64,000 nucleotides of DNA from the NCBI RefSeq assembly GCF_014652455.1, contig NZ_BMYV01000001.1:1426001-1490000 (forward strand), in the 5' to 3' direction. Made by a program: the position numbers and the translations under genes. Under the pieces are notes generated by a model, which worked only from the letters and a program-made list of their open reading frames with translations, made no database searches and had not been told where the DNA came from. The stretch is from Litorimonas cladophorae (GTDB lineage: Bacteria; Pseudomonadota; Alphaproteobacteria; Caulobacterales; Maricaulaceae). This document shows positions 44,310 to 47,710 of this stretch, one piece after another (the first letter of the stretch is position 1; the number at the start of each line of letters is the position of its first letter).

Positions 44310-44924
44310 ATGACAGACGCCAAATCACTCAATATCTGCGTGTTCTGCGGATCTTCACCTGGCGAAGACCCAGCGCACGTTCTTTTGGCGACCGAATTGG
44401 GCAAAGAGATCGCGGCGCGCGGTCACGGCCTTGTCTATGGCGGCGGCGGATTAGGACTGATGGGCGCAACAGCGCGCGCTGCCCGAGATGGCGACGCCAA
44501 AGTCATCGGGATCATTCCCCATTTTCTCAACGCAATCGAACGCACCATTCCAGGTATTGAACATGAGTTTGTGGACGACATGCATGCGCGTAAAATTCGA
44601 ATGTTTGATCTCGCCGACGCATTTGTTGTCCTTCCCGGTGGAGTGGGCACTTTGGAAGAAGTGATCGAAGTCATGAGCTGGCAGCGCCTGAACCTGCACG
44701 ACAAGCCAATCGTCTTTCTTTCCGACACAGGATTTTGGGACAAACTTGTCGCGGTTTTGGATGATATTATCAAAGCGGGCTTCGCGCCCGAAAGCCTCCA
44801 CGACGATATCGAATCTGATACCACGGTTGAGGCTGTGTTCGAAACCATCGCAAGACGTTTAGAGGAAGACCGTAAAGCTCAACCCCTCGGCGGTAAACTC
44901 GATAAAATTGCGGACCTCGTTTAA
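44310..44924 (+). CDS. LOG-family Rossmann protein (TIGR00730, nucleotide ribohydrolase-like)
   Basis: A 204-residue protein of the LOG family (lonely-guy type), which hydrolyses cytokinin-like or AMP-type riboside monophosphates. The GGGGLGLMG and PGGVGTLEEVIEVMSWQRL motifs are those of active LOG enzymes: the catalytic glutamate in 'PGGxGTxxE' and the arginine nearby. It starts with CVFCGSSPGEDP. Alone, divergent from the Ig-like protein gene (47 nt). Its role in bacteria without plant contact is usually nucleotide salvage; that is not proven here. The TAA shares TTAA with the convergent fRMsr gene. Confidence 0.93.
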   Translation: MTDAKSLNICVFCGSSPGEDPAHVLLATELGKEIAARGHGLVYGGGGLGLMGATARAARDGDAKVIGIIPHFLNAIERTIPGIEHEFVDDMHARKIRMFDLADAFVVLPGGVGTLEEVIEVMSWQRLNLHDKPIVFLSDTGFWDKLVAVLDDIIKAGFAPESLHDDIESDTTVEAVFETIARRLEEDRKAQPLGGKLDKIADLV

Positions 44925-45382
44925 AGGATAATACCCTTCAAAATCGCCTCTAAGCCCTCTTGATCCTCTGCGTCGAAACTGCCCACTTCGGTAGAATCGA
45001 CGTCAAAGACAGCGAAGAGATTCCCGTCTGGACCGTAGACTGGCACGACGATTTCGCTACGACTGCGGACGTCACAAGCGATGTGCCCTGAAAAGGCATG
45101 CACATCTTCGACGATTTGAGTTTGACCTGTCCGCGCGGCAGCCCCGCAGACCCCACGCTCGAACGGAATGCGCAAACATCCCAACGTACCTTGATACGGG
45201 CCAACAACCAATTCTTCGGATTTCAACGGATCGACAACGTAAAACCCTGTCCAAAAATAGGCGTCAAAGGCTTCGGAAAGCAAGCAAGAGACCGTCGCCA
45301 TACGCGCAACATTATTGGTCTCTCCCTCAAGGACGGCCGCAATCTCTTTTGCAGTTTGGGTATAAATTTCAGCTTTGGTCAT
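44921..45382 (-). CDS. msrC: GAF-domain free methionine-(R)-sulfoxide reductase (fRMsr/YebR-like)
   Basis: Reduces free L-methionine-(R)-sulfoxide, part of oxidative-damage repair. 153 residues: a single GAF domain with DAYFWTGFYVVDP, GTLGCLRIPFERGVCGAAARTGQ and HIACDVRSRSEIVVPVY, which bear the three conserved cysteines of fRMsr (two in the LGC..GVC region, one in IACD). Two in-frame ATGs lie 3 and 14 codons upstream; I take 45382, where the conserved helix begins. The name follows the E. coli enzyme. It is separated by 66 nt from the flavoprotein gene upstream, perhaps in the same transcript. Confidence 0.88.
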   Translation of the reverse strand: MTKAEIYTQTAKEIAAVLEGETNNVARMATVSCLLSEAFDAYFWTGFYVVDPLKSEELVVGPYQGTLGCLRIPFERGVCGAAARTGQTQIVEDVHAFSGHIACDVRSRSEIVVPVYGPDGNLFAVFDVDSTEVGSFDAEDQEGLEAILKGIIL

Positions 45383-45448
45383 AGCGGGCATATAGGCAGC
45401 AAGACGCCTATCGTCCACCCTCACGCGCCCTTTAATATACGGCTATTT

Positions 45449-46411
45449 TTAGGCCTTCAGCAGATCTTGCGCCGCGGCCCGACCGGAAAGCCATGCCCCC
45501 TGCACGCGCCCACCCAGACACCAATCGCCAGCGGCCACCAGGGCCTCATCCGAGAGACAGTTCACATCGGGTGAGGCTTTGCTTGATGCATAGAGCCAAC
45601 GGTGAAGCGCGATATGCGGCGCGGTGTCCAGCGCCTGTCCAATCACCGTCGAAGCCGCATCTATCATGGCCTTCTGAACCCAATCGCGATCCGCTTCCGC
45701 ATGATGATCAGACCACTCTGGTGCGGAGTGAACGACAATTGCACCCAAGTTGGCATTCCGTCCCGGCTTGGCATTGTTCATGGCGATCCAGTCAATCGGG
45801 GAATCCTTTACGCGTAACGTGTCCCACCCCACGTCAACGGGCGCAGATAGACCAATCATCAAACAAAAACACACATGCATTTCCGCCGCGACCACAGCTG
45901 GCATCTTCTGAAAATTTTCTGGCAAAACGCGCTGTGCTTGCGCGGGTGGCAAAGTCGAAATCACGGCGTCAAAACCCGCTTGCGCAGACCCGTCTTCAAA
46001 TTCCAATGTCCACGACTGCCCATTGACCACGCGACGGACACGGCGACCCAGTTGAATATCCAAGCCCTGCGCCCAATATTTTGGCAAACTGTTCATGCGG
46101 GGGATTGCCACGAAACGCGCACGGCCCGTATCGACGCTTAACGCGCCAGCTTTCAGATACATTGCGCGTGCAGGCCACGGCGCAACGACGCCTGCCGCGA
46201 TTGCGCGATCGATTTCCGATTTAAAATCTGCGTCTTGTATGGTGAAGAATTGTGCACCGTGATCGAATTCCCAGTCGCCCGCATATCGGGTCGACATCCG
46301 TCCACCCACACCCCGGGACTTGTCGAAAATGGTAACGGTTGCGCCTTCGGCTTTTAATTCGCGCGCCGCAGACAGGCCCGCCACGCCAGCGCCTAAAATA
46401 GCTATATTCAT
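45449..46411 (-). CDS. FAD-dependent amine oxidase-like protein
   Basis: A 320-residue flavoprotein of the COG3380 type. It begins with the FAD Rossmann site NIAILGAGVAGLSAARELKA and the following acidic end of strand two (TIFDKSRGVGGRMSTRY), and has the C-terminal FAD motif WCLGGRVQGAWLSGRAAAQDL. The substrate domain in between is shorter than in monoamine oxidases and resembles renalase-like proteins; activity unknown. It is the last gene of a three-gene run beginning at 47710, with 13 nt between it and the photolyase antenna-domain gene. Association with photolyase is seen in many bacteria, which suggests a shared role in light or flavin damage response. Confidence 0.88.
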   Translation of the reverse strand: MNIAILGAGVAGLSAARELKAEGATVTIFDKSRGVGGRMSTRYAGDWEFDHGAQFFTIQDADFKSEIDRAIAAGVVAPWPARAMYLKAGALSVDTGRARFVAIPRMNSLPKYWAQGLDIQLGRRVRRVVNGQSWTLEFEDGSAQAGFDAVISTLPPAQAQRVLPENFQKMPAVVAAEMHVCFCLMIGLSAPVDVGWDTLRVKDSPIDWIAMNNAKPGRNANLGAIVVHSAPEWSDHHAEADRDWVQKAMIDAASTVIGQALDTAPHIALHRWLYASSKASPDVNCLSDEALVAAGDWCLGGRVQGAWLSGRAAAQDLLKA

Positions 46412-46424
46412 GTTATCCCTGATT

Positions 46425-46889
46425 TTAAGCGTCGTCGCGCGACGTGTTCTGGCTAGCTTCTAACTCTTGCGTCGACAGCATGGCGGTTTTTTTGGCTTGA
46501 TTCCAGAAACGAAAGAACCGCCGCGTATCGACATCAGACGCTATGCGAGCAAATGGCCTCGCGTCGACTGGCACGACCTCATGGTCCTTTTGGAGATCGA
46601 TAAGCACATGCGCAATATAAGGGTCTGGCGAAGGCGCGGCATATATGGCTCGGCCATTTGCCACCTCACGCAAGATCGACTTTGGCGTGCCCGCGTAAAT
46701 TGGAATGTCTAAATCCAGCGCACATTCAAAAATAAACACCCGACGTTTTAGCGAATAGCCCAGAGCGTCATGATTATGGCTGTCCCAGATAAAAATGGGC
46801 TGCGCGCCCGGGCCTGCGGCGGCCACCACGGGGTGATCTAAGCTAATAGCGTCCTCATGAACCCAAATGATGCCGTCATTTACACTCAT
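46425..46889 (-). CDS. Stand-alone photolyase-type alpha/beta (antenna) domain
   Basis: A 154-residue protein that I read as the N-terminal Rossmann-like domain of a photolyase encoded as a separate gene. The first strand IIWVHEDAISLDHPVVAAA parallels the 'VWFRRDLRLxDNPAL' start of photolyases, followed by PIFIWDSHN and a strand-helix-strand part with DLDIPIYAGTPKSILREV and IYAAPSPDP, where photolyases bind an antenna chromophore. No FAD domain is attached; that domain is the gene just upstream, whose stop overlaps this start (ATGA). Complementation of the two halves is inferred. Confidence 0.75.
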   Translation of the reverse strand: MSVNDGIIWVHEDAISLDHPVVAAAGPGAQPIFIWDSHNHDALGYSLKRRVFIFECALDLDIPIYAGTPKSILREVANGRAIYAAPSPDPYIAHVLIDLQKDHEVVPVDARPFARIASDVDTRRFFRFWNQAKKTAMLSTQELEASQNTSRDDA

Positions 46890-47710
46890 GTTTTGGGCTC
46901 CAAATTTGGGAACAGTCGCGCGTAAATATCTTCATAGCTCCCGGCCAGAGTTTTATTGGTTTTAAAACGCGTATCGACAGAGTCCCCGCTAAACTTCTCA
47001 ACATTCTCAAGATTGAAAAAATACGGCTTGTGAGAAAACGTGCTCGCGACCCATTGCCAGGACAGGTTATTTGACGCTGGGTCCCCGTCGAGCAAATGCA
47101 TCAGAAAAAACCGCGCCCCCGCCTGCCATTTCACACGTCGCCAATGGCAGACATAAGCCGCAACATAGAGCCGCGCGTGATTGTGGATATATCCCGTGGT
47201 GAGAAGTTCCGCGATAAATTGATCAATACAAGCCACGCCCGTTTTAGCCTGTGAAATATCTTCTGGGAGGTCATCCGCGTAATGCTCAGCGTCAAAGCCT
47301 GTTTTATACGGTTCAACATCATTCCAAATATAGTTTGGGTTTTCGCGATATAATTTCTGCCAATATTCGCGCCAAGCGAGTTGCTGTATGAATTTTTCCG
47401 CTTCTTTGGGTGTGTTCAGGCCCAGAGCCTGATCGCGAATGTCCGCCGTCGAGATCACTCCGTGTCGAACGAATGGGGACAGACCTGTCACCGCACCGTC
47501 CAAATGGTTTCTCGTTCTCCCATAAGTGGCTGGATTGAGACGCCCCAACTGCTTCAAAGCTTCGGCTTTTGACCCCACAATCGGTGATACTTGGTCGTCA
47601 ACAGAGGCCAAATTGGGTGACAGATCACGCACCTTTGCGATAACGTCAGAGCGGTTGAGCCGGAGTTTTGGATCGAAAATTACGGGACGGATTTGTGAAT
47701 TGTCTGACAT
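46886..47710 (-). CDS. FAD-binding domain of photolyase/cryptochrome family, lacking the antenna domain
   Basis: A 274-residue protein equal to the C-terminal helical half of DNA photolyase. The FAD-binding and catalytic core is complete: GLSPFVRHGVIS at residues 76-87, FIQQLAWREYWQKLY at 107-121 with the electron-relay tryptophan, NHARLYVAAYVCHW at 177-190, LLDGDPASNNLSWQWVAST at 206-224, and the N-x-x-K segment near the end. It should repair UV dimers or sense light. The first 45 residues are not the usual Rossmann domain. Photolyases carry the antenna domain first; here the antenna-type gene follows it. Divergent from gap (212 nt apart). Confidence 0.88.
   Translation of the reverse strand: MSDNSQIRPVIFDPKLRLNRSDVIAKVRDLSPNLASVDDQVSPIVGSKAEALKQLGRLNPATYGRTRNHLDGAVTGLSPFVRHGVISTADIRDQALGLNTPKEAEKFIQQLAWREYWQKLYRENPNYIWNDVEPYKTGFDAEHYADDLPEDISQAKTGVACIDQFIAELLTTGYIHNHARLYVAAYVCHWRRVKWQAGARFFLMHLLDGDPASNNLSWQWVASTFSHKPYFFNLENVEKFSGDSVDTRFKTNKTLAGSYEDIYARLFPNLEPKT

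Follow-up and report, generated by a model that had tools for sequence, protein, structure and literature searches.

Genes 1 and 2 of the Litorimonas cladophorae locus described here probably encode a two-subunit photolyase, with the halves translated together and most likely assembling in trans. The locus lies in a window of 64,000 nucleotides (the whole stretch of DNA that was analyzed) and is a conserved two-gene photolyase of a kind described before, in a variant lineage; the new part is the strict pairing of the two genes across 579 genomes. A preceding sequence-only reading had proposed a photolyase split between two genes in reversed domain order. Its central point, two genes with the catalytic one first and the Rossmann one second, held up, but its "complete" FAD domain and the implied novelty of the arrangement did not.

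Both open reading frames have the positions, strand, and overlap originally assigned to them (Table 1), and the ATGA overlap suggests that genes 1 and 2 are translationally coupled. A GGAG (46898-46901) lies 8 nt upstream of the gene 2 ATG, and gene 3 begins 13 nt past gene 2 with an AGGG 5 nt ahead of its own ATG, so each of these genes could possess its own ribosome-binding site.

Table 1. Features of the split photolyase locus (positions in the window)
Feature	Position	Strand	Length	Basis
Gene 1, catalytic (FAD) subunit, Phr4/SPL type	46886..47710	(-)	274 aa	Pfam FAD_binding_7 match
Gene 2, alpha/beta (antenna-domain type) subunit, Phr5 type	46425..46889	(-)	154 aa	Fold and profile
Gene 3, renalase-like NAD(P)/FAD amine-oxidase-family protein	45449..46411	(-)	320 aa	
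ATGA stop/start overlap of genes 1 and 2	46886..46889	(-)	4 nt	

The gene 1 protein belongs to the photolyase/cryptochrome superfamily by homology to Pfam FAD_binding_7 (E 4.5e-26), and the relatives recovered from the PDB (47 sequences with E <= 0.01, the best being 1tez) are likewise photolyases and cryptochromes. All three motifs previously quoted for the FAD part were found in it. The domain is nevertheless incomplete, because the match covers only profile positions 1-135 of 203, whereas the other photolyase of the genome, a full-length class I-type enzyme on contig 3, spans positions 1-203; past DGDPASNNLSWQW, gene 1 has a shorter, unalignable tail in place of the usual photolyase tail. 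Residues W113, N177, R180, W195, D208, D210, N214, W218, and W220, which we take to be the flavin- and DNA-contact positions of class I enzymes, are kept. The gene 1 profile is nearer to the catalytic domain of NewPHL-like proteins (E 8.7e-42) than to class I (E 9e-23); the NewPHL-like set comprises eight fused proteins (L018-L025, with open frames 406-448 aa long) from bacteria of the same family or order, and is so named for its resemblance to NewPHL. When 106 rows were placed in a tree with a class I outgroup, all short catalytic proteins formed one group with the NewPHL-like clade as its sister, a placement that depends on the chosen outgroup since long branches were flagged on the tree (L159, L160, and the NewPHL-like proteins with class I). 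A search of viral contigs with two peptide patterns gave 39 matches, none of them a relative of gene 1.

Gene 2 has no significant Pfam or NCBIfam family, and phmmer found no significant relative in the PDB. An AlphaFold2 model built from a 65-row alignment (mean pLDDT 92.9, pTM 0.75) has a five-strand alpha/beta fold. When this model was compared with 350,542 PDB chains in Foldseek, photolyases took ranks 1-6 and 36 of the 50 listed places, with one M. mazei enzyme accounting for most of these entries, and none of the 50 listed matches reached E <= 0.001. The first six belong to the class II CPD and the bacterial (6-4) photolyases, with probabilities of 0.99-1.00 and query TM values of 0.43-0.58; the remaining listed matches are phosphopantetheine adenylyltransferase and other Rossmann-type proteins. 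Profile alignment with hhalign against the N-domains of six class I-type photolyases gave a probability of 91% and E 9.5e-7 over 131 collinear columns, and no match was obtained with the catalytic domains used as controls. Weaker signals came from the C-terminal domain of the NewPHL-like proteins (collinear, hhalign E 0.005-0.04) and from the part preceding the FAD domain in five ordinary photolyase-size ORFs (G457, G532, G596, G630, and G632; E 7e-4 to 4e-5). Gene 2 is thus confidently predicted to have a photolyase-type alpha/beta (antenna-domain) fold. The earlier assignment of a photolyase-type Rossmann domain is upheld by the N-domain profile match and the predicted structure; the outcome that would have refuted it, a confident fold of another type, did not arise with AlphaFold2 and Foldseek. 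An unrelated Rossmann protein is ruled out by the modeled fold, the Foldseek ranking, and the N-domain match.

The order of the genes is conserved. A search of 60 genomes gave 16 close relatives, and these loci together with the window, 17 of 17, keep genes 1, 2, and 3 in the same order. Among the best 80 of 285 relatives on GTDB contigs, 76 have gene 2 downstream of gene 1 in the same orientation; at the other four (L060, L081, L104, and L110) the contig ends within 363 nt after gene 1. Chance adjacency of genes 1 and 2 is ruled out by these counts, and the two-gene order that the sequence-only reading proposed to seek in other genomes is present in them. When a script selected the start codons, genes 1 and 2 overlapped at 59 of these 76 loci and were separated by 0-50 nt at 8, by 51-300 nt at 6, and by more at 3. 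The contigs are assigned to Proteobacteria, Cyanobacteria, Chloroflexi, Acidobacteria, Planctomycetes, and a few other groups, although some metagenome assignments are doubtful (e.g., Klebsiella for L093).

Co-occurrence was scored in two draws of genomes. Strong matches to genes 1 and 2 were found together in 45 of 579 genomes and singly in none, counts that cover scored candidates (in some genomes a subset of those from the first look), include two draw centers that are present because they bear the pair (the genome of the window and Microseira), and are inflated by shared ancestry, so that they are not independent trials. Among 194 genomes from the phylum of the Microseira genome, gene 1 occurred in 34 and gene 2 in the same 34, at limits (E < 1e-110 for gene 1 and E < 1e-30 for gene 2) that were set after a clear gap had been seen in the lists. 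The next weaker gene 1 matches in this cyanobacterial draw were a fused protein at 5e-68 and then Phr7-like proteins at 9e-40 and weaker, and the next gene 2 match was at 7e-7; eight further genomes had only such weak gene 2 matches, in frames of 477-584 aa. Among 385 genomes of the window's class, with limits of 1e-60 (gene 1) and 1e-10 (gene 2) fixed beforehand, both genes were found in the same 11. The two proteins also diverge together: their pairwise distances correlate with r 0.75 over 88 pairs, where the highest of 500 shuffles gave 0.07, and for seven unlinked pairs r is 0.97.

These counts bear on the published view of short photolyases (SPLs), under which gene 1 would work alone as an antenna-less enzyme and gene 2 would be a separate protein, perhaps regulatory. 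SPLs are described as CPD repair enzymes without an alpha/beta domain and as the likely ancestor of photolyases (Xu et al. 2021, as presented in the available text of PMC9649867), and gene 1, like that class, is an FAD domain with no alpha/beta domain in the same protein. Yet no genome among the 579 had a strong match to one gene alone, including seven in which the two genes are far apart on one contig, and the gene 2 protein has the very fold that gene 1 is missing; independent action of gene 1 is accordingly unlikely.

Separation of the genes bears equally on whether they yield one polypeptide. Read by eye, 20 of the 34 cyanobacterial pairs lie within about 2 kb, 7 are far apart on one contig, and 7 are on different contigs; in two Chloroflexi loci (L106 and L107) an acyltransferase ORF of over 300 aa (PF01553) stands between genes 1 and 2. 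The wide separation and the intervening ORF therefore point to separate proteins. Programmed frameshifting that joins the two ORFs into a single reversed-order photolyase would fit the constant 7-bp spacing in marine Synechococcus and the existence of a fused gene, phr6, both reported in the available text of PMC9426592. The frame relation, however, varies between loci (gene 2 starts at -1, -4, -8, +3, +12, and other offsets from the end of the gene 1 stop), and together with the separated genes and the acyltransferase ORF this rules out frameshift fusion as the general case and makes it very improbable as an explanation here. Fused forms, which had been suggested as worth seeking, do exist. 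Besides the published phr6, a divergent fusion with the same domain order was found in L159 (G475, minus strand, 1319-2671, a 451-aa ORF), with FAD_binding_7 first and an alpha/beta-like part second; this C-terminal part matches gene 2 weakly (E 3e-4, probability 40%), and the protein forms a long branch beside all split proteins on the tree.

Strict co-occurrence combined with separate coding is best explained by two mutually dependent separate proteins, and assembly in trans is favored because the genes strictly co-occur. In such a two-subunit enzyme, gene 1 would supply the flavin and the lesion site and gene 2 the missing alpha/beta half as a separate protein, so that assembly in trans would rebuild the two-lobed photolyase. 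The alpha/beta subunit would probably cover the open side of the FAD site, a role reportedly played in NewPHL by the C-terminal domain, and could possibly carry an antenna chromophore; reduced FAD would then absorb light and transfer an electron into the UV lesion. A physical complex, closure of the FAD site, and DNA repair by the window copy are all expected on this model. When the L050 pair was read through its stop (424 aa) and modeled as a single chain, both folds were obtained with pLDDT 88.6 and pTM 0.66, a value that two undocked domains could also give, and all 50 listed Foldseek matches of the model were photolyases or cryptochromes.

Reversed two-gene and fused forms were already on record for cyanobacteria (PMC9426592 and PMC3441193, as far as their available text extends), contrary to the novelty implied at the outset. 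A pair of Synechococcus genes that each encode one photolyase domain, and whose products might associate as a heterodimer, had been pointed out by Mella-Flores et al. 2012 (PMC3441193). Haney et al. 2022 (PMC9426592) named the cyanobacterial genes phr4 and phr5, stressed their reversed order, suggested heterodimers or frameshifting, and reported the fused phr6 in two Cyanobium strains and the same gene set in Nostoc punctiforme. From Fe-S cysteines, a (6-4) photolyase was predicted for phr4/phr5 in that work. Insertion into phr4 of Synechococcus RS9916 lowered UV-C survival 20-30 fold and had no effect under UV-B, and the phr4/phr5 region in E. coli gave UV-C protection that was about equal in light and dark (PMC9426592). 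On our analysis, the UV-B result and the light-independent protection would count against the photolyase model, the latter not being photolyase-like. The window shares with Phr4/Phr5 an FAD-domain ORF followed by a separate, adjacent photolyase-domain ORF in reversed order, and two members of the same family (L173 and L174) have the cysteine spacing of RS9916 Phr4 (C254, C257, and C263; PMC9426592). It differs in lacking the C-terminal Fe-S cysteines, in carrying Q110/L181 rather than E/M, in having genes that overlap by 4 nt rather than standing 7 bp apart, and in a third, flavoprotein gene.

Three further groups offer comparisons. Gene 1 resembles the SPL class, where its length and bacterial distribution and the report of an SPL in S. 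elongatus (PMC9178010, available text) would place it; unlike SPLs as reported, it is accompanied by an alpha/beta domain, which each of the 45 genomes with gene 1 encodes in a gene of its own. Among the papers listed in searches of open-licence literature, no statement was seen that an SPL protein and an alpha/beta gene belong together beyond cyanobacteria. NewPHL or Phr7 proteins, reportedly those of Emmerich et al. 2020, have the catalytic domain first and a second domain after it, as in the window pair. They carry the catalytic domain and the Z-domain in one polypeptide, whereas the window has two ORFs, and gene 1 falls outside the NewPHL-like clade, as far as a set named by resemblance represents that group. 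No gene 2 match was found in five genomes with Phr7-like matches (frames of 385-399 aa, of which L160 alone was inspected). NewPHL and SPL are treated as one in the available text of PMC13274461; the 106-row tree with its class I outgroup separates the NewPHL-like from the SPL-type proteins. Class I CPD photolyases have both domains, homologous to genes 1 and 2, but in the opposite order, in one gene, and with a complete FAD domain.

The window copy departs from other members in several features. The C-terminal CxxC...C Fe-S cysteines are absent from window gene 1, and C161, in a column that is all Cys in 61 Fe-S rows, is the only one of the four Fe-S cysteines present; the copy is for this reason filed as a relative or variant and not as an Fe-S Phr4. 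The C-terminal motif occurs in 20 of the 80 contig loci, namely those assigned to Cyanobacteria, Chloroflexi, Acidobacteria, and Planctomycetes, and in 30 of 30 gene 1 loci fetched from the cyanobacterial draw. All 16 rows of the window clade have Q110 (Glu to Gln) and L181 (Met to Leu) at what we assume to be lesion-contacting sites, position 110 presumably corresponding to E274 of E. coli and E283 of A. nidulans and position 181 being Met in class I enzymes. E283 has been named as a catalytic residue (PMC12949001, available text). Across 136 aligned rows (8 NewPHL-like and 6 class I among them, and some representing one gene fetched twice), positions 110 and 181 are E/M in 113, Q/L in 21, and mixed in 2 (L101 with Q and M, and L114 with E and L), which break the pattern; outside the window clade, Q/L recurs in L117 and the L161 and L171 genomes. 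Four changes were placed on the tree at each position, too few for a sign test to reach 0.05, and a joint E-to-Q and M-to-L change, arising in about three lineages, is no more than suggested. In the window family Q110/L181 may signify another lesion or another job. Separately, of 45 members outside the window clade that are without the Fe-S cysteines, 14 have Phe at the W218 position (L057, L064, L065, L067, and others, in one alphaproteobacterial clade); as this position is presumably the Trp of the electron-transfer chain, photoreduction may differ in those members.

Gene 3 is largely particular to the window's family, where it lengthens the operon: it adjoins gene 2 in 15 of 15 loci of L041-L055, in 17 of 17 of L001-L017 (many of them the same loci), and in a few others. 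Its product may serve the photolyase as a redox partner or as a flavin reductase; a literature search for COG3380 beside photolyases had no match. A gene 3 homologue also stands beside the fused NewPHL-like photolyase in L025. Alternatively, the pair of the window family could work with the renalase-like flavoprotein, either as a cryptochrome-like sensor of blue light or redox state or in the repair of a different lesion. This family-specific third gene, the two substitutions in all 16 window-clade rows, the loss of the C-terminal Fe-S cysteines, and the presence of the full-length class I-type enzyme on contig 3 all fit such a role. The flavin and electron-transfer positions of gene 1 are kept, however, and animal (6-4) photolyases, which are repair enzymes, also have the E-to-Q change; we regard a sensor or other-lesion enzyme as improbable, and a two-subunit photolyase is retained as the preferred reading for the window pair.

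Other genes were noted in the surroundings of these loci and in the genome. FO synthase cofH appears to be missing from the genome (best match 19 bits, where the cut-off is 374), which makes synthesis of 8-HDF improbable and 8-HDF an unlikely antenna. A GAF-domain protein (Pfam; 44921-45424, minus strand), which in our view resembles a free methionine-R-sulfoxide reductase, is encoded a short way downstream of the operon in the same orientation. A second photolyase-family ORF (open frames of 507-789 aa) is found near the split pair in L083, L096, L099, L102, L106, and L108-L111; of four checked, L102, L109, and L111 have a PhrB-type DPRP domain and L108 has DNA_photolyase and FAD domains. In L022 and L024, the NewPHL-like gene is followed immediately by a photolyase-like ORF that is cut off by the end of the locus; the two overlap by 4 nt in L024, and the ORF of L022 has a DNA_photolyase domain (Pfam).

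For the SPL class as a whole, the strict pairing suggests that the supposed single-piece ancestor of photolyases is really half of a pair. It is conceivable, at somewhat less than even chances, that the entire class is an obligate two-protein photolyase with an alpha/beta subunit that closes the FAD site in trans, and that the window family is a branch of it without the Fe-S cluster, with a changed lesion pocket and a dedicated flavoprotein partner. If the class is a two-protein enzyme, its "lacking" alpha/beta domain would be an effect of looking at one gene. If SPLs never occur without the alpha/beta partner, the argument that photolyases arose from a single catalytic domain would be deprived of its chief extant example, and it would become possible to test in which order fusion, fission, and permutation took place. 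A split photolyase would also allow work in vitro with or without the antenna or lid half, and the window family offers a version in which two lesion-contact residues are changed together. The part most worth following is the strict pairing across phyla and its bearing on the idea of SPLs as the photolyase ancestor.
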